From contig NZ_JAMXLB010000001.1 of assembly GCF_024054195.1 (NCBI RefSeq), positions 310,001 to 374,000 on the forward strand: a stretch of DNA of 64,000 bases, in the 5' to 3' direction. This stretch comes from Flavobacterium sp. NRK F7. GTDB taxonomy: Bacteria; Bacteroidota; Bacteroidia; Flavobacteriales; Flavobacteriaceae. Of this stretch, positions 1 through 14,522 are shown one piece after another. The notes below the pieces were generated by a model, which was not told the DNA's origin, did not search any database, and saw nothing but the letters and a program-made list of their open reading frames with translations. Positions within the stretch are counted from its first letter, which is position 1. Each line of letters opens with the position of its first letter. The translations under genes and the position numbers were made by a program.

Positions 1-446
1 CCAGAAATAGGAACTGCATTTTCAATATTTTTTTCCAAGCCTTCAATTAAAGAGCTTCCGTTTACAAAGCTACCTTCAGAAAGAACAAATAAATGTCTTA
101 AATTTTCTTTAGGTAACGCATTATATAAAGATTCACCTAATTTTTCAGCGTCTTTGTTATGATTCAATATATTTTCTGTACGAATTACAAACGTGCTTTT
201 TTCAAATTCAATAGCCGTTACTACAACCGAATTATCAAACACATTACTATCTATAATTTCTCCTGAAGTAGAACCAAACACTAAATGTTCGTAAGGAAAT
301 TCTTTTCTAACAGCCTCTATAACGGCTTCTTTTTGCAATTCCATTCGATTTCCAAACACAAAGACTAAAGGATTGTGCAAAGTACTCTTTTTTTGAAGAT
401 ACGTCCAATTCTTTCCGTCCAAAGTATAGGCTTGATTAATTCTCAT
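1..446 (-). CDS. FIST N-terminal domain protein (NosP-like), partial
   Basis: The gene starts at the ATG at 446-444 and runs off the left edge, so only about the first 148 residues are visible. They read as a FIST_N domain: a hydrophobic strand PLVFVFGNRM near residue 27, a helix, then LVFGSTSGEI near residue 55 and a VVVTAIEF strand. FIST proteins are ligand sensors; one branch, NosP, binds haem and senses nitric oxide. The start lies 3 nt after the stop of the upstream sensor kinase, so it is the fourth gene of the receiver/H-NOX/kinase operon. The C-terminal half (FIST_C) is outside the window. Assignment to FIST is seen in the sequence; a NosP-like haem role is inference from the operon and cannot be tested on this fragment. 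Confidence 0.8.
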   Translation of the reverse strand, partial: MRINQAYTLDGKNWTYLQKKSTLHNPLVFVFGNRMELQKEAVIEAVRKEFPYEHLVFGSTSGEIIDSNVFDNSVVVTAIEFEKSTFVIRTENILNHNKDAEKLGESLYNALPKENLRHLFVLSEGSFVNGSSLIEGLEKNIENAVPIS

Positions 447-449
447 AAG

Positions 450-3140
450 CTAATTTTTAGGTAATTTAATAAAAAATGTAGTTCCTATTTTCAACTCACT
501 TTCCAGCCAAATTTTTCCTCTATAATTATCTACAATACGTTTTACAATAGACAAACCTATACCTGTTGACTGTTGATTATTTGTAAAAGACTGAAAAATT
601 TTAAAAATTTTTTCTTGATTTTCCTTTGCGATTCCTGGTCCGTTATCTGCAATAGAAAAAACATAGCTATTGGTTTTTTCCTTACAGTCGATTGTTACTA
701 CACCTTCAGGTTTGTCAATATAATTTACAGCATTGCTAATGATATTTTGAAATAGTTGTTGCATTCTAAATTTGTCTGCTTGAATAACTGGTAATGTATT
801 TTGAATATGCACTTTAATATTTTCTGGAATATGTATAATATTAATACAATTTTCCACTACTTCTTGTATGCTAATTTTTTCCTCAGTAACTTCTTCTGTA
901 TCAACTTTCGAATAGGTAAGAATCCCTTGAATTAGATGGTCCATTTTTTCAACTTTACTCTCAATCATACTCAAATACTGTGAGGTTTGCTCAGTAAATT
1001 CCTTTGCATTATCTTCTTTTATCCATGTAATTAAGGAATGGATACTTCGTAAAGGCGATTTTAAATCATGCGAAACAACTTGAGCATATTGATTTAATTG
1101 TTCATTTTGCTTTTCTAACTTTTTAAGAAGTTGCTCTTTTTGAAGTTCTAAATTTTTTTGTTGCGTGATATCCAAATGAATACCTATTGAACCCGTAATT
1201 TCACCATTTAAATTGTAATTAGGTGCACCACTAATTAACCAATGTTTAATTTCTCCCGTTTTTGTTTTGGATGTAATTTCATAGGAATCAGAAACCCCTT
1301 TGGTTCGGATTGTATTTTTATTTTCAATAATGTTTTTTCCTTCTTCAGACATCACTAAATCAGAAGCTTTATTTCCAAGAAGATCTAATAAAGAATAACC
1401 ACTCATCTCACAAAAGGATTGATTGGCAAAAAGAACAACATCATTATTATCGACCTCTAGTAACCCCATGTTCATATTTGCAATAATACTACTGTATTTT
1501 TGCCTTTCTGCTTCTAGACTTTCCTTGTATCTTTTTTGAAGCGTAACATCGTCATAACTCCATAAATGACCTGCATACTTGCCTTCTTTGTAAATAGGCA
1601 AAAAACTTCTTTCAAAAATTCTCCCATCAATTAATTCAATTTCTTCCGAAATGATATTTTTTTTATCTTTTAAAATAACATCAATTCTTTCGAGAAATTG
1701 ATCTGGGTTTTTAAAAAAGTGTTTGGATTCTTCAGCGGCCAATGTGCAGTCAACACCCTTCATGAGCTCAGGTTCTACTTGAATACCAAACATGGTGCAA
1801 AATTTCTTATTTACAATTTGAATTTTTCTATTTTCATCTTCTAATAAAATCCCTGATTGTAAATTTTCAATCAATGAAGTAAGTCTATTTTCTGACTCAA
1901 TTAATTGTTGGTTGAATTCTTTTTCAAGTGTAATATCTTCTTCAATGGCAAAGAATTTTATGATTTCACCGTTTTTATTGTGTAACGCTTGTCCTTGAAT
2001 GCGAACCCAGTATTTCTTTTTATTTTTAGAATAATTGATAATTTCACAACTAAAGGGTAATCCTTTTTGGATTTGATTTGCTAAATATTGAATTGTTTCT
2101 AGATCCGATTCTGGGCCTTGTAATAAATGGCCTGGCTTTTTGCCGATGAGTTCCGTTTTATTAAAACCAGACATTTCGACAAAACTATCATTAACCCATT
2201 CAATAAGTCCGTCTTTATTACAAATAATAACCGAATTGATATTTTTTTCAGCAATTGAAGAAAGTACTGAAAGCTGTTCTTCCTTTTCTTTTTCATCATC
2301 GTGATTTTCAACAATTGCAAAATATTGAACCAATTTTTTTTCTTCATTGTAAACGGGTTGCCCTTTTATTTTTGCCCAAAAAGGGTTTCCGTATTTATGC
2401 GCATGATATCCTTCGACATTAAAAAACTCACCTTTAAAAAAAGCAGTAACCATTTTTTGAAGCTCTTCGGGTGTCGATAAGTCACATTTACCAATTTGAA
2501 TAGGCGTTTTACCAATAATTTCTTCCAATGCGTAACCTGTTAAGTCTAAATAGGATTGGTTACACCAAAAAATCTTACCCATGGGATCTGTAAAAACAAC
2601 ACCATTTTTATTCGCACTCGCAACTAAAGATATTTTATTTAATTCTTCTTTATCTTTTTTTAATTTCTTTCTTTGAGAATTTACGGTGTCTAATAATTCT
2701 TTAAGTTCATGATTATTAATTTCTTGATTTTTTAAAACATGTAGTAAATCTAACAAAGGGTCAAAAATAGCAAAATCATGCAAGGTTAATTTCTTTTCAA
2801 TAACATTCTCCATGGACTTGAACCAAGGTGTTCCTATGAATAGATAGTGCTCATTATGTCTATTGATTTGACCTCTTAAAGAAATAGTAGTATCTAAGGT
2901 TGACTTTAAAACAACCAAAGTTTCGATAGTGTCCTTAAAATTTTCAAGAGAAAAAGAAGTAATGTGTGGTCGTTCTACCGAAAAGACTTCTGTAAAAAGA
3001 CTATTTTCTGTTAAGCTGGGAATAATTTTTTGCAGACTCTTACCCAAACTAACAATTTGTAGATTTTTATCAATTAAAATGTAAAAAGGAAAAATTTCGT
3101 TAAAACTAGAAACATTAAAATTGAATTGAAAATCTTGCAT
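450..3140 (-). CDS. HNOBA-PAS4 sensor histidine kinase, H-NOX-associated
   Basis: An 896-residue soluble sensor kinase with no membrane segment or signal peptide. Residues about 7-168 resemble the HNOBA domain of soluble guanylate cyclase: FPFYILIDKNLQIV at 17-30, the FSVERPHI stretch at 53-60, LRGQI at 88-92, LTLHDFAIFDPLLDLL at 118-133, then a charged coiled coil. Four PAS domains follow (about 170-285, 295-405, 417-535, 548-660). The kinase core has the phospho-acceptor in SHDLKSPL (His691), an N box at Asn803, DNGPGI at 832-837 and TGIGLSIV at 859-866. No receiver is fused; the free receiver two genes upstream is the obvious partner. The start is 4 nt after the H-NOX stop, so the two are surely co-translated. 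HNOBA normally receives the signal from H-NOX, which fits NO-controlled autophosphorylation. The kinase call is secure; the HNOBA call is strong by eye but not profile-checked. Confidence 0.93.
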   Translation of the reverse strand: MQDFQFNFNVSSFNEIFPFYILIDKNLQIVSLGKSLQKIIPSLTENSLFTEVFSVERPHITSFSLENFKDTIETLVVLKSTLDTTISLRGQINRHNEHYLFIGTPWFKSMENVIEKKLTLHDFAIFDPLLDLLHVLKNQEINNHELKELLDTVNSQRKKLKKDKEELNKISLVASANKNGVVFTDPMGKIFWCNQSYLDLTGYALEEIIGKTPIQIGKCDLSTPEELQKMVTAFFKGEFFNVEGYHAHKYGNPFWAKIKGQPVYNEEKKLVQYFAIVENHDDEKEKEEQLSVLSSIAEKNINSVIICNKDGLIEWVNDSFVEMSGFNKTELIGKKPGHLLQGPESDLETIQYLANQIQKGLPFSCEIINYSKNKKKYWVRIQGQALHNKNGEIIKFFAIEEDITLEKEFNQQLIESENRLTSLIENLQSGILLEDENRKIQIVNKKFCTMFGIQVEPELMKGVDCTLAAEESKHFFKNPDQFLERIDVILKDKKNIISEEIELIDGRIFERSFLPIYKEGKYAGHLWSYDDVTLQKRYKESLEAERQKYSSIIANMNMGLLEVDNNDVVLFANQSFCEMSGYSLLDLLGNKASDLVMSEEGKNIIENKNTIRTKGVSDSYEITSKTKTGEIKHWLISGAPNYNLNGEITGSIGIHLDITQQKNLELQKEQLLKKLEKQNEQLNQYAQVVSHDLKSPLRSIHSLITWIKEDNAKEFTEQTSQYLSMIESKVEKMDHLIQGILTYSKVDTEEVTEEKISIQEVVENCINIIHIPENIKVHIQNTLPVIQADKFRMQQLFQNIISNAVNYIDKPEGVVTIDCKEKTNSYVFSIADNGPGIAKENQEKIFKIFQSFTNNQQSTGIGLSIVKRIVDNYRGKIWLESELKIGTTFFIKLPKN

Positions 3141-3144
3141 ATGT

Positions 3145-3687
3145 TTACCAACTTACATTAAAAATTTCGTGACTATCACCTAAATCTCTTGTTTGTAAAA
3201 GTGTAATAGACGCTGTAACACCAAACATAATGGCTAAACCCTGTATTAGACCTCTTACAAATTCTTGCAACCCTTCTCTTTTAGAAAAGTAATGTAAGTT
3301 AAGACTATTTTCTGATATATCCGAAATTTTAAACTCTGGTGGCGTTAATTTTGGATAAATTAACATCACTCTGTTATGAAATAAGGGCAAATTAAGTAGA
3401 AACTCTTTGAAAGTACTTCCCCCTGATTCCATTAATCCGCCATATTTTTCTTTAGTCGTTTTAACAACCCACCATTCTCCAAAAGCAATGAGCACTTCTT
3501 GAAGGGTCATATTCATTTCTTCTGAAACAGCTTGTGCCAATTTAAAAGTGATAGCGTCATCATAGGCTTCACCACTAATAAAAAAATCTTCTTCTATACC
3601 ACTTTTCTCTAAAATGATTTCCCATTTCTCCTTTCCAAAATTAGAAGTAACTAAATCTTGAATGGCTTTATTTACAATTCCATACAT
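3145..3687 (-). CDS. H-NOX haem nitric oxide-binding protein (sGC beta-like)
   Basis: A stand-alone 180-residue H-NOX domain, a cytoplasmic gas sensor. I chose the ATG at 3687, giving the family start MYGIVNKAIQDLV; it sits 2 nt after the receiver stop. An in-frame start at 3720 would add 11 residues inside the receiver gene. The proximal haem ligand is His104 (LPLFHNRVMLIYP) and the propionate-binding YxSxR motif is Tyr133-Ser135-Arg137 (HYFSKREGLQ). Both stretches look more like animal guanylate cyclase beta-1 than like the Shewanella or Thermoanaerobacter proteins. The distal-pocket position held by Tyr140 in the oxygen-binding Thermoanaerobacter protein aligns with Phe143, so the pocket should prefer NO over oxygen. 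Partner: the HNOBA kinase immediately downstream. Confidence 0.93.
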   Translation of the reverse strand: MYGIVNKAIQDLVTSNFGKEKWEIILEKSGIEEDFFISGEAYDDAITFKLAQAVSEEMNMTLQEVLIAFGEWWVVKTTKEKYGGLMESGGSTFKEFLLNLPLFHNRVMLIYPKLTPPEFKISDISENSLNLHYFSKREGLQEFVRGLIQGLAIMFGVTASITLLQTRDLGDSHEIFNVSW

Positions 3688-3689
3688 AC

Positions 3690-4103
3690 TTATTGAGATA
3701 TGAGTTCTGTGATGCTCCAATAGTCAAGCATTCTTTTTATTCGCTCCATGTAATCTTCATATTTTAAAGGCTTTAAAACATAACCTGCAATACCAATTTT
3801 GTAACATTCAAGCATGTCTTTATGATTGCTCGAAGTAGTTAAAATGATGGCAGGAATATATTTTAATATTTCATCCTTTTTGATGATGGAAAGAAATTCT
3901 ATCCCGTTTAGTTTTGGCATATTTAAATCCAATAATATAATATCTGGAATGATTTCCTTTTCTTTTAAAATTGTTAAAGCTTCTTCGCCATTATTCGCTT
4001 CAATAATTTTATGATTCAATCCTAATGTTTTAACCACACGGTTAAATTTCATGACTTCGATTGCATCATCTTCGATTAAAAGTATGTTTAGAGATTTTGT
4101 CAT
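3690..4103 (-). CDS. Single-domain response regulator (CheY/Rcp1-like)
   Basis: A 137-residue receiver with no output domain. Acidic pocket residues are Glu11-Asp12-Asp13, the phospho-acceptor is Asp59 (LLDLNMP), the switch residue is Thr90 and the conserved lysine is Lys111 (LKPL). The C-terminal YEDYMERIKRMLDYWS is typical of Rcp1-type receivers that work with PAS or phytochrome kinases. It is the first gene of the operon, followed 2 nt later by H-NOX and then the kinase, so it is the likely phosphate acceptor of that kinase. With no DNA-binding or enzyme domain, its output must be protein-protein interaction or onward phosphotransfer; the target is not evident here. Confidence 0.93.
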   Translation of the reverse strand: MTKSLNILLIEDDAIEVMKFNRVVKTLGLNHKIIEANNGEEALTILKEKEIIPDIILLDLNMPKLNGIEFLSIIKKDEILKYIPAIILTTSSNHKDMLECYKIGIAGYVLKPLKYEDYMERIKRMLDYWSITELISQ

Positions 4104-4198
4104 TTTTTTTATTTGTTTATAGCAGACACTTATTCAATCACAAAATTAAAAGCAAACTCAATTCCCTTCTTTTATTTTCGATTAGAAAGGAAGAAGTA

Positions 4199-4230
4199 TA
4201 GATGAATGGAAAAAAAGTGTAGATGAATGG
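4199..4230. repeat. Two 11-bp direct repeats, 21 bp apart
   Basis: TAGATGAATGG occurs at 4199-4209 and again at 4220-4230, exactly two helical turns apart. The pair lies 96-127 bp upstream of the receiver start of the NO-signalling operon and directly before the terminator of the next gene. The geometry suits a dimeric regulator, but no known consensus is recognised. Confidence 0.5.
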
Positions 4231-5479: not shown

Positions 5480-6946
5480 TTAAATTCTGGGCAAATCATT
5501 TTCATCTTTTAAAGGCAAAAGAGAAGTTCCCATTAGATATTTATCTACATGATAAGCTGCTTGTCTTCCTTCAGAAATGGCCCATACAATTAACGACTGT
5601 CCTCTTCTCATATCTCCGGCAGAAAAAACACCTTTAACATTCGTAGCATAATCTTTAGTAGAAGCTTTAATATTGGTCCTAAAATCCATTTCAACACCAA
5701 ACTGTTCAGCTAATGTTTTTTCTGCTCCTACAAATCCTAACGCCAATAAGACTAAATCACAATCCCAATTTTTCTCTGTGTTAGGAATTTCTAGTAATTG
5801 AGGTCGTTCTCCTTCTTTAAAAACCCATTCTACCTCAACGGTTTTTAACCCAATGACATTTCCATTTTTATCACCAATAAATTCTTTGGTTGAAATACTA
5901 AAAAAACGTTCTACCCCTTCCTGATGAGACGAAGTGGTTTTTAATTTCATAGGCCAATAAGGCCAAGGTTGATGGGCAGGGCGCCCTTCAGAAGGCTTAC
6001 TTAAAATTTCAAAATTAGCAACCGATACTGCTCCATGACGATTACTCGTTCCAATGCAATCTGAACCCGTATCTCCTCCTCCAATTACAATTACTTTCTT
6101 ATCTTTTGCTGAGATAATTTCGCCAAAAGGAACCAAACCATCTACATATTGATTGTTTAATTTTAAAAAATCCATGGCTTGATGAATGCCTTTTAAATGA
6201 ATTCCTTTAACAGGCATACTTCTTCTTTCAGTTGCACCACCACATAGTAGAACCACATCATAATCGGCTTTAATTGTTTCTACACTTATATTTTGGCCAA
6301 CATGTGCTAACGTTTTGAATACAATCCCTTCTTCTTCGAGAATTTTCAAACGTCTATCTATGATGTATTTTTCTAATTTAAAATCAGGTATACCATAGCG
6401 TAACAAACCTCCTATTTTTGCATCTCTTTCAAAAACAGTTACCCAATGTCCTGCTCTATTTAATTGTTGGGCAGCTGCTAAACCTGATGGACCAGAACCT
6501 ATAATGGCTACTTTTTTGCCTGTTCTATTTTGAGGTGGTTTTGCAACAATCCAACCTTCTTTAAAAGCAGTTTCTACAATGTTTTTTTCAATATTTTCAA
6601 TTGTTACAGGATCTTCATTAATTCCTAAAACACAAGCCTCTTCACAAGGAGCTGGACATAAACGACCTGTAAATTCGGGAAAATTATTCGTCGAATGTAA
6701 AATTTGAGCCGCTTCTTCCCACCTTCCTTTATACACTTTGTCATTAAAATCGGGTATATGATTTCCCAAAGGGCAACCGCTATGACAGAATGGAATACCA
6801 CAATCCATGCATCTCGCACCTTGAGTTTGCAATTTATTTTCCTCTAATGGAATAGTAAATTCTTTGTAATTTTTAAGTCTTTCTTCAACTTTTAAGTAGT
6901 TTTCATTTACTCGTTCATATTCTAAAAATCCGGTTGCTTTTCCCAT
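5480..6946 (-). CDS. gltD: Glutamate synthase (NADPH) small subunit
   Basis: A 488-residue subunit that passes electrons from NAD(P)H through FAD and [4Fe-4S] clusters to the large subunit, which converts 2-oxoglutarate and glutamine to two glutamates. The N-terminal cluster cysteines are Cys46, 49, 54 and 58 (CMDCGIPFCHSGCP), with a second cysteine set near residues 96-105. The FAD-binding VAIIGSGPSGLAAA follows at about 146, and the pyridine-nucleotide site VIVIGGGDTGSDCIG at about 285. Length fits the family. It starts 4 nt downstream of gltB, so the two are one transcript with order gltB-gltD. The GOGAT pathway is completed by the divergent ammonium transport genes. Confidence 0.97.
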   Translation of the reverse strand: MGKATGFLEYERVNENYLKVEERLKNYKEFTIPLEENKLQTQGARCMDCGIPFCHSGCPLGNHIPDFNDKVYKGRWEEAAQILHSTNNFPEFTGRLCPAPCEEACVLGINEDPVTIENIEKNIVETAFKEGWIVAKPPQNRTGKKVAIIGSGPSGLAAAQQLNRAGHWVTVFERDAKIGGLLRYGIPDFKLEKYIIDRRLKILEEEGIVFKTLAHVGQNISVETIKADYDVVLLCGGATERRSMPVKGIHLKGIHQAMDFLKLNNQYVDGLVPFGEIISAKDKKVIVIGGGDTGSDCIGTSNRHGAVSVANFEILSKPSEGRPAHQPWPYWPMKLKTTSSHQEGVERFFSISTKEFIGDKNGNVIGLKTVEVEWVFKEGERPQLLEIPNTEKNWDCDLVLLALGFVGAEKTLAEQFGVEMDFRTNIKASTKDYATNVKGVFSAGDMRRGQSLIVWAISEGRQAAYHVDKYLMGTSLLPLKDENDLPRI

Positions 6947-6950
6947 ATCA

Positions 6951-9900
6951 TTATTGTTTTACGAGGTTTTCTTGTTGTATTCTGATTAATGCTTGTTTGT
7001 ACTCTTCTGGGAAAACTTTAATAAATTTACTCAATTCTGTTTCCCAATTTTCTAAAATGCGTTGTGCCAAAGGACTCATGGTCGCGTTATAATGATTTTC
7101 GATAAGTTGTTTTAGTTCGATGCAATCTTCTTCTAAAACTACTGGATCTAAATTTAACCCTTCTGTATTACACTGTTTTTCAAAGGTTTGCTTAGCATCA
7201 TAAATATAAGCGATACCACCACTCATTCCTGCACCAAAATTACGTCCCACTTCACCTAAAACTACCGCTCTTCCCCCTGTCATATATTCGCATCCATGAT
7301 CACCAATACCCTCAACAACAGCCGTAGCTCCTGAATTCCTCACACAAAAACGTTCTCCAGCTTTTCCATTAATATATACTTCTCCAGAAGTTGCTCCATA
7401 TAAAGCGACATTTCCAATGATAATATTTTCTTCTGGAATAATAGTAGCTTCTTCTGGTACTTTAACCACTAATTTTGCTCCTGAAAGACCTTTTCCAAAA
7501 TAATCATTTGAATTTCCATTAATCACTAAAGTTAATCCTCTGGTTGCAAATGCTCCAAAACTTTGACCTGCTGAACCCGTAAAATTAATTTTTAAAGTGT
7601 TTTCGGGCAGACCTTGGGAACCATAAATTTTTGAAATTTCATTACTTAAAACCGCACCAAAAGCTCTGTCTCTATTTGTTATTTTAGATTCTAATACAGT
7701 TTTCTCTTTTCTAAATAAAGCAGGATGCGCTTGGCGTATGATTTTAAAATCGAGGGATTTTTCCAAGTGATGATCCTGAGATTCTGTATGGTATAATTTA
7801 GTTCCTTCTGGCACCTCTACTTTATGCAAGATAGAAGACAAATCCAATCCCATGGCTTTGTAATGTTGAATGGTTTTATTGCGATTTAATTTTTGTACTT
7901 GCCCCACCATTTCATTCACTGTTCTAAAACCCAATTGGGCCATAATTTCTCTTAATTCCTGCGCCACGAAATACATAAAATTAACCACATGTTCGGGTTT
8001 TCCTTGAAATTTCTTTCTTAATTCAGGATTTTGAGTAGCAATACCAACAGGACAGGTATTTAAATGACACACTCTCATCATTACACACCCTGAAGCCACT
8101 AATGGAGCCGTTGCAAAACCAAATTCTTCTGCCCCTAACAAACAAGCGATTGCAACATCTCTTCCAGTTTTCAATTGGCCATCACATTCCAAAACCACCC
8201 TATTTCTAAGATTGTTCATAACCAATGTTTGTTGGGCCTCAGCCAAACCTAACTCCCAAGGTAATCCTGCATGTTTAAGAGAAGTTAGAGGGGAAGCACC
8301 TGTTCCTCCATCATGACCAGAAATTAGAATAACATCGCCTTTTGCTTTGGCAACACCTGCTGCAACTGTTCCAATTCCTACTTCAGAAACCAACTTAACA
8401 TTAATTCGTGCTTCTCTATTAGCCGATTTCAAATCGTAGATAAGTTGTGATAAATCTTCAATAGAATAAATGTCGTGGTGTGGCGGTGGAGAAATTAGAC
8501 CTACATAAGGTGTAGAATTTCTTGTTTTCGCAATATCAGGATTTACCTTTGGCCCAGGTAATTGTCCGCCTTCACCAGGCTTAGCACCTTGAGCCATTTT
8601 TATTTGGATTTCAGAAGCATTGGTAAGATAATTTGAAGTAACTCCAAAGCGACCTGAAGCCACTTGTTTTATTGCAGAATTTTTCCAGTCTCCATCAGCA
8701 TCTCTATAAAATCGTTCTTCATCTTCACCTCCTTCACCAGAATTACTTTTTCCACCAATACGATTCATAGCAATGGCTAAATTTTCGTGTGCTTCTTTAC
8801 TAATAGAGCCATACGACATCGCGCCTGTTTTAAAACGTTTTACAATTTCAGTCCAAGGTTCTACTTCTTCAATAGGAATAGGATCATAATTTGTAAATTC
8901 AAACAAACCTCGAATGGTCATCAATCGTTTCGATTGTTCATTTATGATTTCAGAATATTCTTTAAAGGTACTATGTTTATTACTTCGCACCGACTCTTGT
9001 AATTTGGCAACCGATAATGGATTAAAAGCGTGCTTTTCTCCATTTCTTCTCCATTTATAGTCGCCACCAAATTCTAAATCCAGCTCTCCTTCAATTCCAT
9101 TTTTTTGATAGGCTTTATGATGTCTTTTAGAAATTTCACTTTCAATTTCTTTTAAACCAATTCCTTGAATTCTGGTAATGGTATTTGGAAAGTATTCCTC
9201 AACAATTTTAGTATTTAAACCAATACATTCAAAAAGTTGTGCTCCTCTGTAGGAATTTAAAGTTGAGATACCAATTTTATTCATTACTTTTAAAATCCCC
9301 ATACCTATCGCCTTATTATAATTCTGAATGGCGTGCAAATAATCGATATTTTCAAGTTCTTTATTTTCCACTTGATTATAGACTATTTCATTTACGATAT
9401 ACGGATTTATAGCACTTGCGCCATAACCAAAAAGTAACGCAAAATGATGTACTTCTCTAGGTTCAGCCGATTCAATAATAATACTTACTTTAGCTCTTTT
9501 CCCAATTTTATACAACTCATGATTTACATAAGAGCAAGCTAATAAAGCAGGAATAGGTGCCATTTTATGATTCACGCCTCTGTCGGATAAAATGATAATA
9601 TTTCCTCCTTCATCAATGGCTTTGGAAGCGGTTTTTACTAAATTAACAAGAGCTCTTTCTAATTCATTTAAACCTTTTCCAACTTCATACAAAATAGAAA
9701 TCGTCGTTACTACAAAATCAGGGTTGTGTGTATAATTTTTAATTTTATCTAAATCATGTTTTGAAATTACAGGATTTTGAATTTTTAGTTTTCTACATTG
9801 ATCTTCATTAATTTTAAAGATATTCGTATCACTACCTAAAGTTAAGCTTATATCGGTTATTAATTTCTCGCGAATACCATCTAAGGGCGGATTGGTTACT

Positions 9901-11465
9901 TGAGCAAATAATTGCTTAAAATAATTGTAAATTAATTGTGGTTTTTGTGACAAGATTGCAATTGGAGCATCATTACCCATGGAACCTATAGGTTCTTTCC
10001 CTGTTTGTGCCATAGGTAAAATGATAGTCTTCAAATCTTCTTCTGTGTATCCAAAAAGAATTTGTCTCTTTTGAAGCGCGTCTTCTTTATGCTTTATAGG
10101 TCCTTTTTTAGCTGGAATATCTTTTAAATGGACTAAATTTTTATCCAACCATTTTTTATAGGGATGTTTAGAAACAATTTTCTCTTTGATTTCTTCATCA
10201 TTTACAATTCTCCCTTGATTCATATTAACTAAAAACATTTTTCCTGGTTCTAATCTACCATGACGTTCAATATTTTTAGGATCAATATCTATAACACCCG
10301 TTTCTGAAGACATAATTACATAACCATCTTTGGTAACCGTATAGCGAGAGGGACGCAATCCATTTCTATCTAAAACTGCACCGATATAGTTACCATCTGT
10401 AAATGGAATAGAAGCAGGTCCGTCCCACGGTTCCATGATACAAGAATTATATTCATAGAAGGCTTTTTTTGCTTCAGACATATTAGGATTTTTCTCCCAA
10501 GCTTCGGGTACTAGCATCATCATTACTTCTGGCAAAGAACGACCCGTCATTAACAATAGCTCTACCATCATATCCATTTGAGCTGAATCTGATTTTCCTG
10601 GTAAAATAATAGGAAACAATTTTTTAATATCTTCTCCAAACCATTCGCTTTCCATTAATTCTTGTCGGGATAACGTTCGAGATACATTTCCTCTTAATGT
10701 ATTGATTTCACCGTTATGACACATATATCGAAAAGGTTGTGCTAAATCCCAAGTTGGAAAAGTATTGGTTGAGAATCGCTGATGTACTAAAGCTAAACGG
10801 GTAACTAATGAAGGGTCTTGTAAGTCTTTGTAATATAATTTAATGTCTTCTGGAATCAAAAGCCCTTTAAAAATAATAGTCTTAGTAGATAAGCTAGGTA
10901 AATAAAAACGTTTGCTCTCAGATAATTTTGAAGTATTAATGTCATGTTCGGCTTGCTTTCTTGCCGTAAATAATTTTAAATTAAAAGTAAAATCATCTTG
11001 TTTTCTTTCTGATTTGCCAACGAAAATTTGCTTTATATAAGGTTCCGTTTCAGCAGCAATTCTTCCAATAACTGTTGTATCAACTGGTACTTCTCTCCAA
11101 CCTAAAACAAGCAAGCCTTGCTTTTCGATATAATATTCCAATTTTTCAATACAATAGTTACGTTGATTTTCTCTTTTAGGAAGAAAAACATTACTTACAG
11201 CATATTCGCCTTCTTTTGGTAAGGCAAAATCACATTTTTTTACAAAAAAATCATGAGGAATATCTATTAAAATTCCAGCTCCATCACCCGTCTTCCCATC
11301 AGCACTTACAGCTCCTCTATGCTCCAACTTTTCGAGTATTTCTAATGCTTTATGAATAATATCATTTGATTTATTTCCTTTTAAACTACAAATAAAACCA
11401 GCGCCACAATTATCGTGTTCAAACTCTGGCAAATAAAGTCCTTGTTTTTTTAGCATTGTTGTCAT
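6951..11465 (-). CDS. gltB: Glutamate synthase large subunit
   Basis: A 1504-residue large subunit. The N-terminal glutaminase (class II amidotransferase) has its nucleophile as Cys20 in DNCGAGFI; the residues before it are a propeptide removed on maturation in this family. Two starts are possible, ATG at 11465 or three codons later; the first is used. The central and FMN-binding synthase domains follow, with the cluster-binding Cys set CVMMRVCHLNTCPVG at about 1127-1138. The C-terminal beta-helix domain has glycine-rich turns (GNVALYGATSGEVYING). It converts glutamine plus 2-oxoglutarate to glutamate, channelling ammonia internally. It heads the gltB-gltD operon and is divergent from porin-glnK-amt, so both sides of ammonia assimilation share one control region. 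Confidence 0.97.
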   Translation of the reverse strand: MTTMLKKQGLYLPEFEHDNCGAGFICSLKGNKSNDIIHKALEILEKLEHRGAVSADGKTGDGAGILIDIPHDFFVKKCDFALPKEGEYAVSNVFLPKRENQRNYCIEKLEYYIEKQGLLVLGWREVPVDTTVIGRIAAETEPYIKQIFVGKSERKQDDFTFNLKLFTARKQAEHDINTSKLSESKRFYLPSLSTKTIIFKGLLIPEDIKLYYKDLQDPSLVTRLALVHQRFSTNTFPTWDLAQPFRYMCHNGEINTLRGNVSRTLSRQELMESEWFGEDIKKLFPIILPGKSDSAQMDMMVELLLMTGRSLPEVMMMLVPEAWEKNPNMSEAKKAFYEYNSCIMEPWDGPASIPFTDGNYIGAVLDRNGLRPSRYTVTKDGYVIMSSETGVIDIDPKNIERHGRLEPGKMFLVNMNQGRIVNDEEIKEKIVSKHPYKKWLDKNLVHLKDIPAKKGPIKHKEDALQKRQILFGYTEEDLKTIILPMAQTGKEPIGSMGNDAPIAILSQKPQLIYNYFKQLFAQVTNPPLDGIREKLITDISLTLGSDTNIFKINEDQCRKLKIQNPVISKHDLDKIKNYTHNPDFVVTTISILYEVGKGLNELERALVNLVKTASKAIDEGGNIIILSDRGVNHKMAPIPALLACSYVNHELYKIGKRAKVSIIIESAEPREVHHFALLFGYGASAINPYIVNEIVYNQVENKELENIDYLHAIQNYNKAIGMGILKVMNKIGISTLNSYRGAQLFECIGLNTKIVEEYFPNTITRIQGIGLKEIESEISKRHHKAYQKNGIEGELDLEFGGDYKWRRNGEKHAFNPLSVAKLQESVRSNKHSTFKEYSEIINEQSKRLMTIRGLFEFTNYDPIPIEEVEPWTEIVKRFKTGAMSYGSISKEAHENLAIAMNRIGGKSNSGEGGEDEERFYRDADGDWKNSAIKQVASGRFGVTSNYLTNASEIQIKMAQGAKPGEGGQLPGPKVNPDIAKTRNSTPYVGLISPPPHHDIYSIEDLSQLIYDLKSANREARINVKLVSEVGIGTVAAGVAKAKGDVILISGHDGGTGASPLTSLKHAGLPWELGLAEAQQTLVMNNLRNRVVLECDGQLKTGRDVAIACLLGAEEFGFATAPLVASGCVMMRVCHLNTCPVGIATQNPELRKKFQGKPEHVVNFMYFVAQELREIMAQLGFRTVNEMVGQVQKLNRNKTIQHYKAMGLDLSSILHKVEVPEGTKLYHTESQDHHLEKSLDFKIIRQAHPALFRKEKTVLESKITNRDRAFGAVLSNEISKIYGSQGLPENTLKINFTGSAGQSFGAFATRGLTLVINGNSNDYFGKGLSGAKLVVKVPEEATIIPEENIIIGNVALYGATSGEVYINGKAGERFCVRNSGATAVVEGIGDHGCEYMTGGRAVVLGEVGRNFGAGMSGGIAYIYDAKQTFEKQCNTEGLNLDPVVLEEDCIELKQLIENHYNATMSPLAQRILENWETELSKFIKVFPEEYKQALIRIQQENLVKQ

Positions 11466-11767
11466 TTTTTTTTTAGATTTTTTTACCCCTCTACCACTAA
11501 ATTATAATTTAGAATTTTAATACTAAAATCTTAGAATGATTATTACGATTTTAAAAATATTAACTCCTAAAAAAATTATATCCATAATTTAAAAGCATTT
11601 TTTTACGAAATCAATAATGAATAAAAATCAATAAAATTTATTTTTAATTGAATTTAAATTATTTATTAAACTAAAAACATGAATTATATACAATATTTTT
11701 CAACAAATAGTAAATAAAATTCATTTTTTTGATTATTATTTTTTTAAAAAAATTAAAAAATAAAATA

Positions 11768-11790
11768 ATACCCTAATTTTTTTAGGGTAT
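11768..11790. promoter_or_regulatory. Inverted repeat 1, candidate operator
   Basis: ATACCCTAA at 11768-11776 and TTAGGGTAT at 11782-11790 form a perfect 9-bp inverted repeat around a 5-bp T spacer. It is centred about 80 bp upstream of the TACATTTG promoter element. It could be a protein-binding site; a terminator is less likely, since no gene ends here. Confidence 0.55.
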
Positions 11791-11820
11791 AAAATGAAAA
11801 TATGATAAAAATCATACACT

Positions 11821-11844
11821 TAACCCTATTTTTTTATAGGTATA
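11821..11844. promoter_or_regulatory. Inverted repeat 2, candidate operator
   Basis: TAACCCTAT and ATAGGTATA form a second, imperfect copy of the repeat at 11768-11790 (core CCTAT-N6-ATAGG at 11825-11840). Its centre is about 53.5 bp, close to five helical turns, from the first. It lies where a -33 promoter element would be expected. Confidence 0.5.
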
Positions 11845-11857
11845 ATTTGTTTTTGAA

Positions 11858-11865
11858 TACATTTG
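11858..11865 (+). promoter_or_regulatory. Promoter -7 element for porin-glnK-amt
   Basis: TACATTTG matches the Bacteroidota -7 consensus TAnnTTTG and lies 26 bp before the porin ATG. No TTG is found at the usual distance upstream; inverted repeat 2 covers that position, which suggests an activator-dependent promoter. Confidence 0.55.
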
Positions 11866-11891
11866 TTTGAACAACTATAAAAACAATATTT

Positions 11892-12899
11892 ATGAAAAAA
11901 CACTTTACAATTACATTGTTACTACTCTCCCTTTGTTTTTTTGCACAAGAGCAAACCGCAACAGAAGAAACTATAACAAAAGAAAAAAAATTTACCTTTT
12001 CAGGAAGTATAGACACGTATTACAGAGCTAATTTAACCGCACCAAATGATGACAATCAAATCGCGCCAAACACCTCATTTGCCGACAAATCTGGATTCGC
12101 ATTAGGAATGGCAAATATCATTGCTAAATATGAAAAAAATAAAGTAGGCGCGGTGGCTGACTTAGCATTTGGACCAAGAGCCATTCAAGCCAGTTTCATT
12201 GACTCCACTTTTGTGAACCAACTCTATGTTTTCTACAACTTAACCGATAAAGTAAAAATAACTGCAGGAAAATTCAACACCTATTTAGGATACGAACTAA
12301 TTTCACCTGTTGGCAACTTCAATTATAGCACTTCCTATCTCTTTACTAATGGACCGTTTAACCATACAGGTTTAAAGGCAGACTTCACTTTGTCTGAAAA
12401 AACAAGTTTACTCTTAGGAGTTTTCAATCAAACTGATATTAATCTTTTCAACCCAGATGGGAGTTATGCTGTAGGCGCACAATTTGGCTACAATAGTCAG
12501 TTTTTAAATATTCTATATGATGACGCTGGCCTAGGATTAGAAATTGATTATACAGGAGGATTTAGTCCTTCAGAATCTTTCTTTTTGGGCATAAACGGCG
12601 CTTATGCAGACAATGATGGAGAAGGTTTTTATGGTGCCGCTTTATACCCTCAATATACATTTAACAAATCTTTTATTTTAGGTCTAAGAGGCGAATATTT
12701 CACAAGACAAAGCGACCTGATAGATGATGACCCAAATGTCATTGCCATAACCCTGACAGGAAGCTATACTGTTGATGACCTAACTATTAAACCTGAATTT
12801 CGATTAGACAATGGTTCGGAAGAAATTTTTATTACCAATGATTTAGAACCCACTAAATCCTTAGGTTCCTTTTTAATAGCTGCTATTTATAAATTTTAA
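11892..12899 (+). CDS. Outer membrane beta-barrel porin (bbp2/OmpL-like)
   Basis: A 335-residue outer-membrane protein with a cleavable signal peptide (MKKHFTITLLLLSLCFFAQ). The mature part begins with FTFSGSIDTYYRANL and continues as alternating amphipathic strands (KITAGKFNTYLGYELI, FILGLRGEYFTR), ending in the aromatic C-terminal strand AAIYKF. This pattern fits the putative beta-barrel porin-2 (OmpL-like) family. It is the first gene of an operon with glnK (18 bp gap) and amt (24 bp gap). That context suggests a channel for ammonium or a small nitrogen compound across the outer membrane, induced with Amt; substrate is inferred only from position. Confidence 0.85.
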   Translation: MKKHFTITLLLLSLCFFAQEQTATEETITKEKKFTFSGSIDTYYRANLTAPNDDNQIAPNTSFADKSGFALGMANIIAKYEKNKVGAVADLAFGPRAIQASFIDSTFVNQLYVFYNLTDKVKITAGKFNTYLGYELISPVGNFNYSTSYLFTNGPFNHTGLKADFTLSEKTSLLLGVFNQTDINLFNPDGSYAVGAQFGYNSQFLNILYDDAGLGLEIDYTGGFSPSESFFLGINGAYADNDGEGFYGAALYPQYTFNKSFILGLRGEYFTRQSDLIDDDPNVIAITLTGSYTVDDLTIKPEFRLDNGSEEIFITNDLEPTKSLGSFLIAAIYKF

Positions 12900-12917
12900 C
12901 TAAATACTACATTTCGA

Positions 12918-13256
12918 ATGAAAAAAATTGAAGCAATAATCAGAAAATCAAAGTTTTCTGCTGTAAAAAAAGCCCTTCATGAAATAGGTGTAAACTTTTT
13001 CTCTTATTGGGACGTAACCGGCATTGGCAATGAAAAACAAGGACATGTTTATAGAGGCATTTCTTATAGTACTAGTGATATTCAAAGAAGATATCTTTCC
13101 ATCGTTGTTAATGATGATTTTGAGGAAACAACCATTAAAGCCATTCTTCAAGCAGCCGCCACAGGTGACGTAGGTGATGGCAAAATATTCGTTTCTCATA
13201 TAGATGAAGTGTACAGAATTCGTACTGGAGAAAAAGGCGGTCAAACTTTAAAATAA
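12918..13256 (+). CDS. glnK: P-II nitrogen regulatory protein GlnK
   Basis: A 112-residue P-II signal protein. It has the family start MKKIEAIIRKSKF, a T-loop with YRGISY (Tyr50 takes the place of the uridylylation Tyr51 of enteric GlnB), the B-loop TGDVGDGKIFV and the C-terminal RIRTGEKG. P-II trimers bind ATP/ADP and 2-oxoglutarate and, when ammonium is plentiful, plug the Amt channel. The amt gene follows 24 bp later, the classic glnK-amt pair. Whether Tyr50 is modified here cannot be told: no GlnD or adenylyltransferase is in the window. Confidence 0.95.
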   Translation: MKKIEAIIRKSKFSAVKKALHEIGVNFFSYWDVTGIGNEKQGHVYRGISYSTSDIQRRYLSIVVNDDFEETTIKAILQAAATGDVGDGKIFVSHIDEVYRIRTGEKGGQTLK

Positions 13257-13280
13257 CTAATCAAAATTACAAAACTTATT

Positions 13281-14522
13281 ATGGAAGATGTTACGAAACA
13301 AATAACCGAAATAAATGGAGCATTCGATATTTTATGGATACTTATTGCTGGTGTGCTCGTCTTTTTAATGCAAGCTGGTTTCACTTTAGTTGAAGCTGGT
13401 TTCACAAGATCCAAAAATACTATTAATATAATCATGAAAAACGTAATGGATTTATGTATTGGTTCATTAGGTTTTTGGGCAATCGGCTACACGTTGATGT
13501 ACGGAGACACTATAGGTTCTTTTATTGGCAGCCCTTCATTATTTTATAATTCTGAAGGAGAAATGCACAATCTATTTTTTCAAACTGTATTTTGCGCAAC
13601 AGCTGCAACAATAATTTCTGGAGCCGTAGCAGAAAGAACCAAATTTTCAACCTATTTAATACTTTCATTAGTAATAACAGTTTTCATCTACCCTATTTCA
13701 GGTCATTGGGTTTGGCAAGGAAATGGCTGGTTAACCAATTTAGGGTTTGTCGATTTTGCAGGGTCAACTGTAGTTCATTCAGTAGGAGGTTGGGCTGCAT
13801 TAGTAGCCGCTTATTTAGTTGGTCCAAGAATTGGAAAATATACCGATGGTAAATCCAATGCCATCCCTGGACACAACATGATGTACGGCGCACTTGGAGT
13901 TCTAATTTTATGGTTTGGATGGTTTGGATTTAATGGAGGTTCTGAATTAGCAATTTCAGGTGATCATGCGAAAAATGTTTCTAATGTTTTCATAACAACC
14001 AATTTAGCCGCTGCTGCTGGAGCAATTGTCGCTATGTTTTATACCTGGTTTAAGTATAAAAAACCAGATGTCTCTATGACTTTGAATGGCGCATTAGCTG
14101 GTTTAGTAGGGATTACTGCTGGATGTGCAGCCGTTTCTAATGGTGGCGCTTTAGCCATAGGTGCTATTTGTGGCCTAGTAGTTGTATTAGCCATTAGTTT
14201 TATTGATGTAAAACTTAAAATTGACGATCCCGTTGGAGCTATTTCTGTACATGGAGTATGTGGCGCTTTAGGTACAATTTTAGTTGGTATATTTGCCGTT
14301 GACGGTGGCTTATTATATGGTGGTGGTCTAACTCAATTAGGTATTCAAGTAGTAGGAGTATTTGCTATTGGAACTTGGGCTATAGCAACTACTTTTATAG
14401 TGCTATTTGCTTTAAAGAAAACGGTTGGACTACGTGTTTCTGAGAAAGATGAAACAGAAGGTCTTGATATAACAGAACATGCTATGAATGCTTACCCTGA
14501 TTTTAGATTGAATGAAAAATAA
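13281..14522 (+). CDS. amt: Ammonium transporter
   Basis: A 413-residue inner-membrane channel of the Amt/Rh family with about 11 hydrophobic segments. The two pore histidines are present: one in VVHSVGGWAALVAAYLVG and one in ISVHGVCGALGTILVG. The signature region GHNMMYGALGVLILWFGWFG is intact. The cytoplasmic tail (DETEGLDITEHAMNAYPDF) matches the P-II-contacting tail of the family. There is no N-terminal signal peptide. It is the last gene of the porin-glnK-amt operon, which ends at the terminator starting 26 bp downstream. It should import ammonium for GltBD. Confidence 0.97.
   Translation: MEDVTKQITEINGAFDILWILIAGVLVFLMQAGFTLVEAGFTRSKNTINIIMKNVMDLCIGSLGFWAIGYTLMYGDTIGSFIGSPSLFYNSEGEMHNLFFQTVFCATAATIISGAVAERTKFSTYLILSLVITVFIYPISGHWVWQGNGWLTNLGFVDFAGSTVVHSVGGWAALVAAYLVGPRIGKYTDGKSNAIPGHNMMYGALGVLILWFGWFGFNGGSELAISGDHAKNVSNVFITTNLAAAAGAIVAMFYTWFKYKKPDVSMTLNGALAGLVGITAGCAAVSNGGALAIGAICGLVVVLAISFIDVKLKIDDPVGAISVHGVCGALGTILVGIFAVDGGLLYGGGLTQLGIQVVGVFAIGTWAIATTFIVLFALKKTVGLRVSEKDETEGLDITEHAMNAYPDFRLNEK

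Follow-up and report, generated by a model that had tools for sequence, protein, structure and literature searches.

Flavobacterium sp. NRK F7 carries, at the edge of the 64,000-nucleotide stretch analysed here (the window; G000:C1:310001-374000 of a 3.75-Mb genome), part of an operon for a putative nitric oxide (NO) signalling system. On the minus strand, genes for a single-domain receiver, an H-NOX protein, a histidine kinase with an HNOBA domain (kinase 1) and a FIST protein follow one another with gaps of 2, 4 and 3 nt, exactly the order and spacing given in the initial annotation of this DNA. The window edge cuts the operon, and the genome shows seven genes, the remaining three encoding a second kinase (kinase 2), a histidine phosphotransfer protein (Hpt) and a regulator with a receiver and a LytTR domain (REC-LytTR). 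FIST and kinase 2 overlap by 1 nt, kinase 2 and Hpt are separated by 1 nt, and Hpt and LytTR by 10 nt. The genome contains a single H-NOX match and a single FIST match.

Table 1. Genes of the operon and elements upstream of it. Positions refer to the window unless prefixed L002, the numbering used for genes beyond the window edge (window coordinate plus 6000).
Feature	Properties	Position	Strand	Support
Single-domain receiver	137 aa; phospho-acceptor Asp59	3690..4103	minus	Pfam Response_reg 80.4 bits
H-NOX	180 aa; proximal His104, Tyr133-x-Ser135-x-Arg137, no Cys	3145..3687	minus	Pfam HNOB 167.8 bits (cut-off 25.5)
Kinase 1	HNOBA-4x PAS-HisKA-HATPase_c; 896 aa; His691	450..3140	minus	Pfam HNOBA 62.8 bits (cut-off 23.4; best stretch residues 8-81), HisKA 37.9 bits, HATPase_c 87.5 bits
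FIST	N-terminal part in window, cut by its edge; whole gene 377 aa	1..446; whole gene L002:5313-6446	minus	FIST 153.8 bits, FIST_C 130.1 bits
Kinase 2	343 aa; His139	L002:4282-5313, outside window		Pfam and residue reading
Hpt	105 aa; His55	L002:3963-4280, outside window		Pfam and residue reading
REC-LytTR regulator	Asp53	L002:3242-3952, outside window		REC 71.3 bits, LytTR 70.5 bits
Putative LytTR-type operator	pair of CATTCATCTA half-sites repeating every 21 bp; precedes receiver gene	4199..4229	minus	position weight matrix 50.7 bits
Putative promoter element	TAATTTTG, match to Bacteroidota -7 element TANNTTTG; 50 nt after operator	4141..4148	minus	

Conservation of the operon and its relay residues

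Hidden Markov model searches place the H-NOX protein in its family and recover HNOBA, four PAS_9 stretches and a complete kinase core in kinase 1, as the annotation had proposed; the search of the complete FIST gene likewise confirms its assignment (Table 1). The nearest relative of kinase 1 in our relatives search is that of Flavobacterium profundi (94%).

To place the operon in its family we surveyed 349 Flavobacteriaceae genomes, of which 129 have H-NOX, 104 have FIST and 84 have both. There were 133 H-NOX matches, one of them under the curated cut-off. FIST lies at most 3 kb from H-NOX in 71 of these matches, on the same strand in every case, downstream in 70 and upstream in 1; the remaining 62 have no FIST inside 6 kb. 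Co-location at this frequency, with the same strand throughout, rules out a chance neighbourhood of the two genes. Apart from the NRK F7 genome there are 70 H-NOX/FIST loci, and the best 40 by H-NOX score were examined, using scripted gene calls (ATG starts only) labelled by best phmmer match. All seven genes occur in order in 33 of the 40. As to the exceptions, L197 has a different layout, L221 ends at a contig end, Hpt was not called in L227, and no LytTR was called in L205, L220, L224 and L234, the first of which also has no Hpt call. Sixteen further Flavobacterium loci (L012-L027) share the operon order with some losses: H-NOX has no match in L014, L018 and L026, FIST and kinase 2 are both missing from L022, and LytTR is inverted in L018. 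Receiver, H-NOX, HNOBA kinase and FIST belong to one operon, as first annotated. Across the phylum, H-NOX was found in 22 of 296 genomes drawn, 11 of them outside Flavobacteriaceae; among those 11, FIST is on the same contig only in G512 (L250), from another family of the class, where the whole operon is present.

By their predicted domains, the seven genes supply every component of a phosphorelay that ends in a DNA-binding regulator. The residues of a His-Asp-His-Asp relay are all present (Table 1) and strongly conserved: kinase 2 His139 in 51/51 proteins, Hpt His55 in 50/50, LytTR Asp53 in 48/48, a receiver motif of the D-x-x-M-P type in 56/56 and a kinase 1 box of the SHDLK type in 54/55, L197 being the exception. 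The lone receiver is the probable phosphate shuttle of this relay. A Pfam scan found no GGDEF, EAL or HD-GYP domain among the seven operon proteins.

In L014, L020, L023 and L027 an extra gene of 426-430 aa separates kinase 2 from Hpt, and a Pfam scan of the first two identifies it as a third kinase in both. The operon of Flavobacterium jejuense (L014) has no H-NOX gene, and between its receiver and its retained HNOBA kinase 29 residues of H-NOX-like sequence survive as a relic (52% identity, E 0.001); a search for such relics in the gaps of L018 and L026 gave no match.

Two putative sensors and their kinases

The H-NOX of NRK F7 is, judged by its closest matches, of the cyanobacterial/soluble guanylate cyclase (sGC)-like type: its best PDB match is Alr2278 (161.5 bits), followed by sGC beta1. 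An alignment of 54 H-NOX proteins (that of NRK F7, 13 relatives and the 40 loci) revealed that two types occupy the same slot in the operon: NRK F7, its relatives and L197 have the cyanobacterial/sGC-like type, and the remaining 39 of the 40 loci have a short one. The divergent L024 protein was counted with the former, and the H-NOX calls of L221 and L222 are N-terminally truncated. The proximal histidine is present in all 54 proteins and the Tyr-x-Ser-x-Arg motif in 53, L024 having Lys.

The HNOBA domain is found in 17 of 55 kinases (a set that left out L221 and in which the L017 reading ends after 60 aa), namely those of 16 Flavobacterium loci and L197, and in 0 of 38 kinases from loci with a short-type H-NOX. 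A Pfam scan of two typical kinases from the latter loci (L202, L212) confirmed that HNOBA is absent, and the kinases whose sequences were inspected start with a coiled-coil-like stretch. Outside Flavobacteriaceae, H-NOX proteins nearer the NRK F7 type adjoin an HNOBA kinase in three of three cases (L244-L246), and an HNOBA search in the other 13 loci of that set gave no match. From this pattern we infer that H-NOX and the HNOBA docking domain were exchanged as one unit. As a separate observation, the H-NOX-FIST spacing in the 71 pairs clusters near 1350, 1730, 2115 and 2505 nt, in steps of about one PAS domain; kinase 1 may vary in length by whole PAS units.

FIST, for its part, is accompanied by its own kinase. 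Relay loci without FIST also lack kinase 2 (5/5: L022 and L256-L259), the last four having a five-gene form made up of receiver, H-NOX, kinase, Hpt and LytTR; in L253 only receiver, H-NOX and kinase are in view. Outside the operon, 17 of 18 FIST genes are followed by a kinase-like open reading frame (ORF), albeit on weak matches of 21-45 bits, and the 18th lies at a contig edge. Because FIST and kinase 2 come and go together, two sensor-kinase pairs feeding one relay are the better reading, in which the gene neighbourhoods assign FIST to kinase 2 and H-NOX to kinase 1. The initial annotation had both sensors acting on one kinase within one phosphorelay. The single relay is supported, with Hpt and LytTR added to it, and the joint input through one kinase is not. 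Such an arrangement does exist elsewhere, as L197 (G253) has FIST, H-NOX and then one hybrid kinase with HNOBA, PAS and REC domains and a weak Hpt match. Taken as a whole, the annotation is partly supported.

FIST had also been offered as a second NO sensor, on the grounds that its family includes NosP. By membership it is not a NosP: it scores 68.1 bits against a cut-off of 450 in the NosP equivalog model NF041558, and is 23% identical to the annotated NosP of Azospirillum lipoferum 4B and 41% identical to another FIST of that strain. The latter adjoins a PAS-domain protein and a response regulator, and the A. lipoferum NosP adjoins a NahK/ErcS kinase. Kinase 2 reaches 80.9 bits, through its kinase core alone, in the model for NahK/ErcS-type hybrid kinases (NF041832; cut-off 400); it has no receiver domain, and the roughly 130 residues before its HisKA contain no recognised domain. 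The score of FIST, well short of the NosP cut-off, leaves a second NO input unproven. His366 and Cys363 are conserved in 49 of 53 operon FISTs, and His366 sits one alignment column after a NosP histidine; in the available portions of the literature the haem-ligand residue of NosP was not found named. Comparison of the FIST sequence with solved structures returned two matches, both dynein light chains (best E 0.39), which are not meaningful, and an AlphaFold model from 12 sequences was set aside (mean predicted local distance difference test score 54).

A direct repeat and the genes that it precedes

The repeat upstream of the receiver gene is the sole match above 13 bits in the window to a position weight matrix (PWM) built from 38 receiver-upstream sites, of which it was one. 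A first pattern, derived from three sites spotted by eye, gave four exact matches and one with a single mismatch in the whole genome, all within C1:293606-314229 (20.6 kb), at the operon itself or the exopolysaccharide genes next to it; three other genome matches carry 3 mismatches, and the reversed-pattern control gave 2. With a refined pattern (at most 3 mismatches), 42 matches were found in 16 of 17 genomes, compared with none in any of the 17 for the reversed control. Thirty-six of these share a contig with the operon and lie no more than about 23 kb from it, 3 lie beside similar genes on other draft contigs, and 3 are elsewhere. Allowing at most 4 mismatches in the 200 nt before the receiver, the repeat is present in 45 of 51 loci with an adjacent LytTR and in 2 of 5 without, against a background of 28 in 3000 random 200-nt stretches of the same loci. 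Flavobacterium psychrophilum DSM 3660, a fish pathogen (L019), has the same operon plus the upstream repeat.

At the 13-bit threshold the PWM gave 118 matches over the 40 loci. Seventy-six of them are not before the receiver, and all 76 are on the operon's strand (the reversed PWM gave 1), with a same-strand ORF start 60-150 nt downstream of 58. In held-out loci a match precedes the operon's receiver in 6/6, ten others had none, and 58 unrelated loci of mixed phyla (869 kb) gave 0 matches. The placing of the repeats relative to promoters is also constrained. Within 70 nt after 88 sites, TANNTTTG, which we take to be the Bacteroidota -7 consensus, occurs only at +29/30 (11) or +50/51 (18), where 4.9 occurrences would be expected over all offsets; the +29 and +50 classes are one repeat period apart. 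In NRK F7 the offset is +30 before a Wzz-like gene, a phosphoribosyltransferase gene and the UDP-glucose dehydrogenase gene (ugd), and +50 before the receiver, and a site after lytTR has -7 elements at +38 and +50. Such fixed spacing would be the placing expected of an activator beside RNA polymerase. Taken together, these patterns suggest that the repeat is probably the LytTR operator.

The genes adjoining the operon include two STAS genes, a Wzz-like protein, a flippase, a Wzy_C protein, a phosphoribosyltransferase, glycosyltransferases, a hexapeptide transferase, UDP-glucose dehydrogenase, a receiver, a receiver-fused sugar transferase and an outer-membrane efflux-type protein. In the part first scanned, the Wzz-like protein falls short of the Wzz cut-off (20.5 of 25.5 bits), and its F. 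profundi orthologue scores 31.3 bits for AAA_31. Repeats in NRK F7 precede the Wzz-like gene, the phosphoribosyltransferase-glycosyltransferase operon and ugd, and the site after lytTR lies some 380 nt ahead of STAS; the cluster and its repeat sites are the same in F. profundi. In two other Flavobacterium loci (L182, L183) the cluster differs, comprising STAS, a flippase, GT4, a glycoside-hydrolase-like protein and a receiver-GT2 fusion, and there the repeats stand before STAS and before the fusion gene.

Within 14 kb downstream, a homologue of a polysaccharide gene scores 150 bits or more in 26 of the 40 loci; at any score the number is 29, in which some weak matches may be receivers alone. 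PWM matches occur 60-150 nt before polysaccharide genes or STAS in 16 of the 40 loci, and an ORF of 800-960 aa has such a match at the same distance upstream in 21. Scanned in two loci (L202:8842-11430 and L206:8718-11318; about 860 aa, after lytTR), this ORF contains DUF6923 and a type IX secretion system sorting tail. Its product is possibly a secreted surface protein and a co-target of the regulator.

Several features of the neighbourhood deserve mention in their own right. The STAS genes (L002:2207-2833 and relatives) are paired in several loci, have an operator upstream in many and stand before the polysaccharide cluster. In NRK F7 a receiver is fused to a bacterial sugar transferase (PF02397; L092:6507-7694), and in Flavobacterium sp. 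J27 to a GT2 glycosyltransferase (L183:6068-7243); polysaccharide synthesis itself may be under phospho-control. Also adjoining the operon, window positions 5480-14522 hold glutamate synthase small and large subunit-like, PII-like and ammonium transporter-like genes, as read by eye from the translations.

Proposed signalling chain and known systems

We consider it fairly likely that the operon encodes an NO-responsive, multi-input phosphorelay that controls transcription of surface polysaccharide genes. In this scheme NO-bound H-NOX, a haem sensor, would alter kinase 1 through the HNOBA domain, and FIST would act on kinase 2 to add a second input; its possible function as a haem or NO sensor is guessed from the family to which it belongs. 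From both kinases phosphate would move to the lone receiver (His to Asp), then to Hpt (Asp to His) and finally to REC-LytTR (His to Asp), if the order of transfer is as we suppose. Phosphorylated LytTR would then bind, most likely as an activator, the repeats of 21-bp period that lie at a fixed distance before promoters, both those of the adjacent polysaccharide genes and that of its own operon. The available portions of PMC8846402 and PMC8738867 (the accession-numbered papers cited below, other than PMC7108781, are likewise represented by portions) describe systems in which NO-bound H-NOX inhibits its kinase. On that precedent, NO, presumably the ligand here too, would inhibit kinase 1 and polysaccharide synthesis would fall.

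A number of observations weigh against this scheme. Among genomes of the same genus in the phylum draw, only 5 of 18 have H-NOX (9 of 18 have FIST), and a genome search for the copper nitrite reductase NirK gave only two sub-threshold fragments and so no NO source, other NO enzymes not having been searched for. The FISTs of G118, G313 and G338 are divergent and without His366. No recognisable repeat precedes the receiver in 6 of the 51 LytTR loci, and the two LytTR-less loci with a repeat are L221, which is cut by a contig end, and L205. L220, L224 and L234 have neither LytTR nor operator yet keep a TPR/flippase/glycosyltransferase polysaccharide cluster, so the relay can lack the LytTR/operator output. 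No ORF starts 60-150 nt downstream of 18 of the 76 non-receiver PWM matches, and overlapping matches at triple repeats give both registers, making the two promoter classes partly one. Fourteen of the 40 loci are without a polysaccharide homologue of at least 100 bits in 14 kb, and the counts of polysaccharide adjacency lack a random-window baseline. Finally, the loci are related by descent, and the 40 come from the head of a ranking of 70.

Alternative explanations differ in how much of the scheme they would change. It is a serious possibility, if a somewhat less probable one, that only H-NOX senses NO and that FIST-kinase 2 brings a separate signal into the relay, such as a small metabolite, an interacting protein or haem itself. 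Arguing for this are the low NosP score (68 of 450 bits) and the greater identity to the other Azospirillum FIST than to the annotated NosP (41% and 23%), together with the behaviour of FIST-kinase 2 as a travelling unit, the FIST-kinase pairs outside the operon and the three genomes in which the operon FIST lacks His366. Counter to it, FIST is beside H-NOX in 71 of 133 cases, His366 and Cys363 persist in 49 of 53, and the NosP proteins of Burkholderia and Legionella, stand-alone FIST sensors, are described as NO sensors, although one review calls the evidence for FIST limited (PMC12570481, PMC8846402). The lone receiver might instead be an output or a phosphate sink, with another receiver supplying Hpt, a possibility that we regard as unlikely. 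Single-domain receivers elsewhere act as CheY-like outputs, and the sequence leaves the direction of phosphate transfer unfixed. However, neither kinase 1 nor kinase 2 has a receiver domain, so Hpt needs a receiver as donor; moreover, receiver and Hpt co-occur in the five-gene form (L256-L259), and the hybrid kinase of L197 carries REC and Hpt fused.

It is less probable still that the direct repeats are operators of a different regulator encoded elsewhere. L221 and L205 carry the repeat, and L253 a weak one (13.5 bits), with no LytTR in view, but the repeats are commoner with an adjacent LytTR and are grouped around lytTR in each genome. LytTR regulators, AgrA among them, besides usually have direct repeats spaced by about two helical turns. 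We would be most surprised if H-NOX reported oxygen or redox state instead of NO. Its lack of Cys excludes a zinc-cysteine switch, its nearest PDB entries are Alr2278 and then sGC beta1, and at residue 143, six positions past the motif Arg and presumably the oxygen-stabilising site, it has Phe and not Tyr. Counter to this, oxidative control has been reported for the H-NOX of Vibrio cholerae (PMC8738867).

Returning to the proposed phosphorelay, its variation among loci may be described as a "socket" free of cyclic di-GMP (c-di-GMP), a view that we hold in even balance between acceptance and rejection. A fixed backbone of receiver, Hpt, LytTR and operator would receive swappable sensor-kinase cartridges, all setting the transcription of surface polysaccharide genes, and the polysaccharide cluster would be exchanged too, with the operator retained. 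The cartridges would pair a short H-NOX with a coiled-coil kinase, an H-NOX of cyanobacterial/sGC type with an HNOBA kinase, and FIST with kinase 2; a third kinase would sometimes be added. For this H-NOX circuit, which recurs across the family, sequence alone lets one name the full chain, the likely operator and the probable targets, and the role of H-NOX in Flavobacteriaceae is thereby open to direct test. The joint change of H-NOX type and HNOBA domain offers, in addition, a natural experiment on sensor-kinase matching.

FIST near H-NOX is already present in the group 1 neighbourhood network of a review, PMC8738867, the available portions of which describe no operon, relay, operator or target, unlike the present locus. 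The main text of PMC7108781, credited for that figure, makes no mention of FIST or Bacteroidetes. A literature search, thin on subscription papers and therefore weak, found no H-NOX-FIST-LytTR relay. Nor did it turn up the relay in full, its LytTR output, the operator, polysaccharide genes as the target or the linked exchange of H-NOX type and HNOBA.

The closest parallels on the FIST side are NosP-NosK-NosR of Burkholderia pseudomallei (PMC12570481) and NosP-NahK-NarR of Legionella (PMC8846402), in which a FIST gene and a kinase feed a response regulator; NosK resembles kinase 2 in having about 130 residues before its DHp domain and no recognised sensor domain (PMC12570481). Both NosP systems are described with an output of the c-di-GMP type, unlike the LytTR output here, where FIST is moreover not a NosP equivalog and an H-NOX pair shares the operon. 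On the H-NOX side, HnoX-HnoK-HnoB/HnoD of Shewanella (PMC8846402, PMC8738867) likewise combines an H-NOX adjoining its kinase with several regulators, and has a link to biofilm; its described output is a c-di-GMP phosphodiesterase, and the portions available mention no LytTR output. More generally, bacterial H-NOX and NosP are reported mostly to end in c-di-GMP enzymes or quorum sensing, and in Vibrio fischeri in iron-uptake genes. Like the relay proposed here, the quorum-sensing inputs of Vibrio bring NO sensors to LuxU and a DNA-binding regulator, with H-NOX and NosP in one network (PMC8738867, PMC6769237). H-NOX (VCA0720) and NosP of V. cholerae each have their own kinase, in separate places, whereas in NRK F7 both pairs lie in one operon with Hpt and the regulator.

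LuxU is an Hpt protein. Alr2278, the Nostoc H-NOX, and sGC beta1 are of the same H-NOX type by sequence as the protein described here, and sGC also carries an HNOBA-type domain. Unlike in sGC, H-NOX and HNOBA are on two proteins in NRK F7, and the effector is a kinase. The regulator itself resembles AgrA-type LytTR regulators (AgrA/LytTR are named in PMC6769237) in its REC-LytTR architecture; in contrast to that type, it is probably fed through an Hpt relay and not directly by one kinase.

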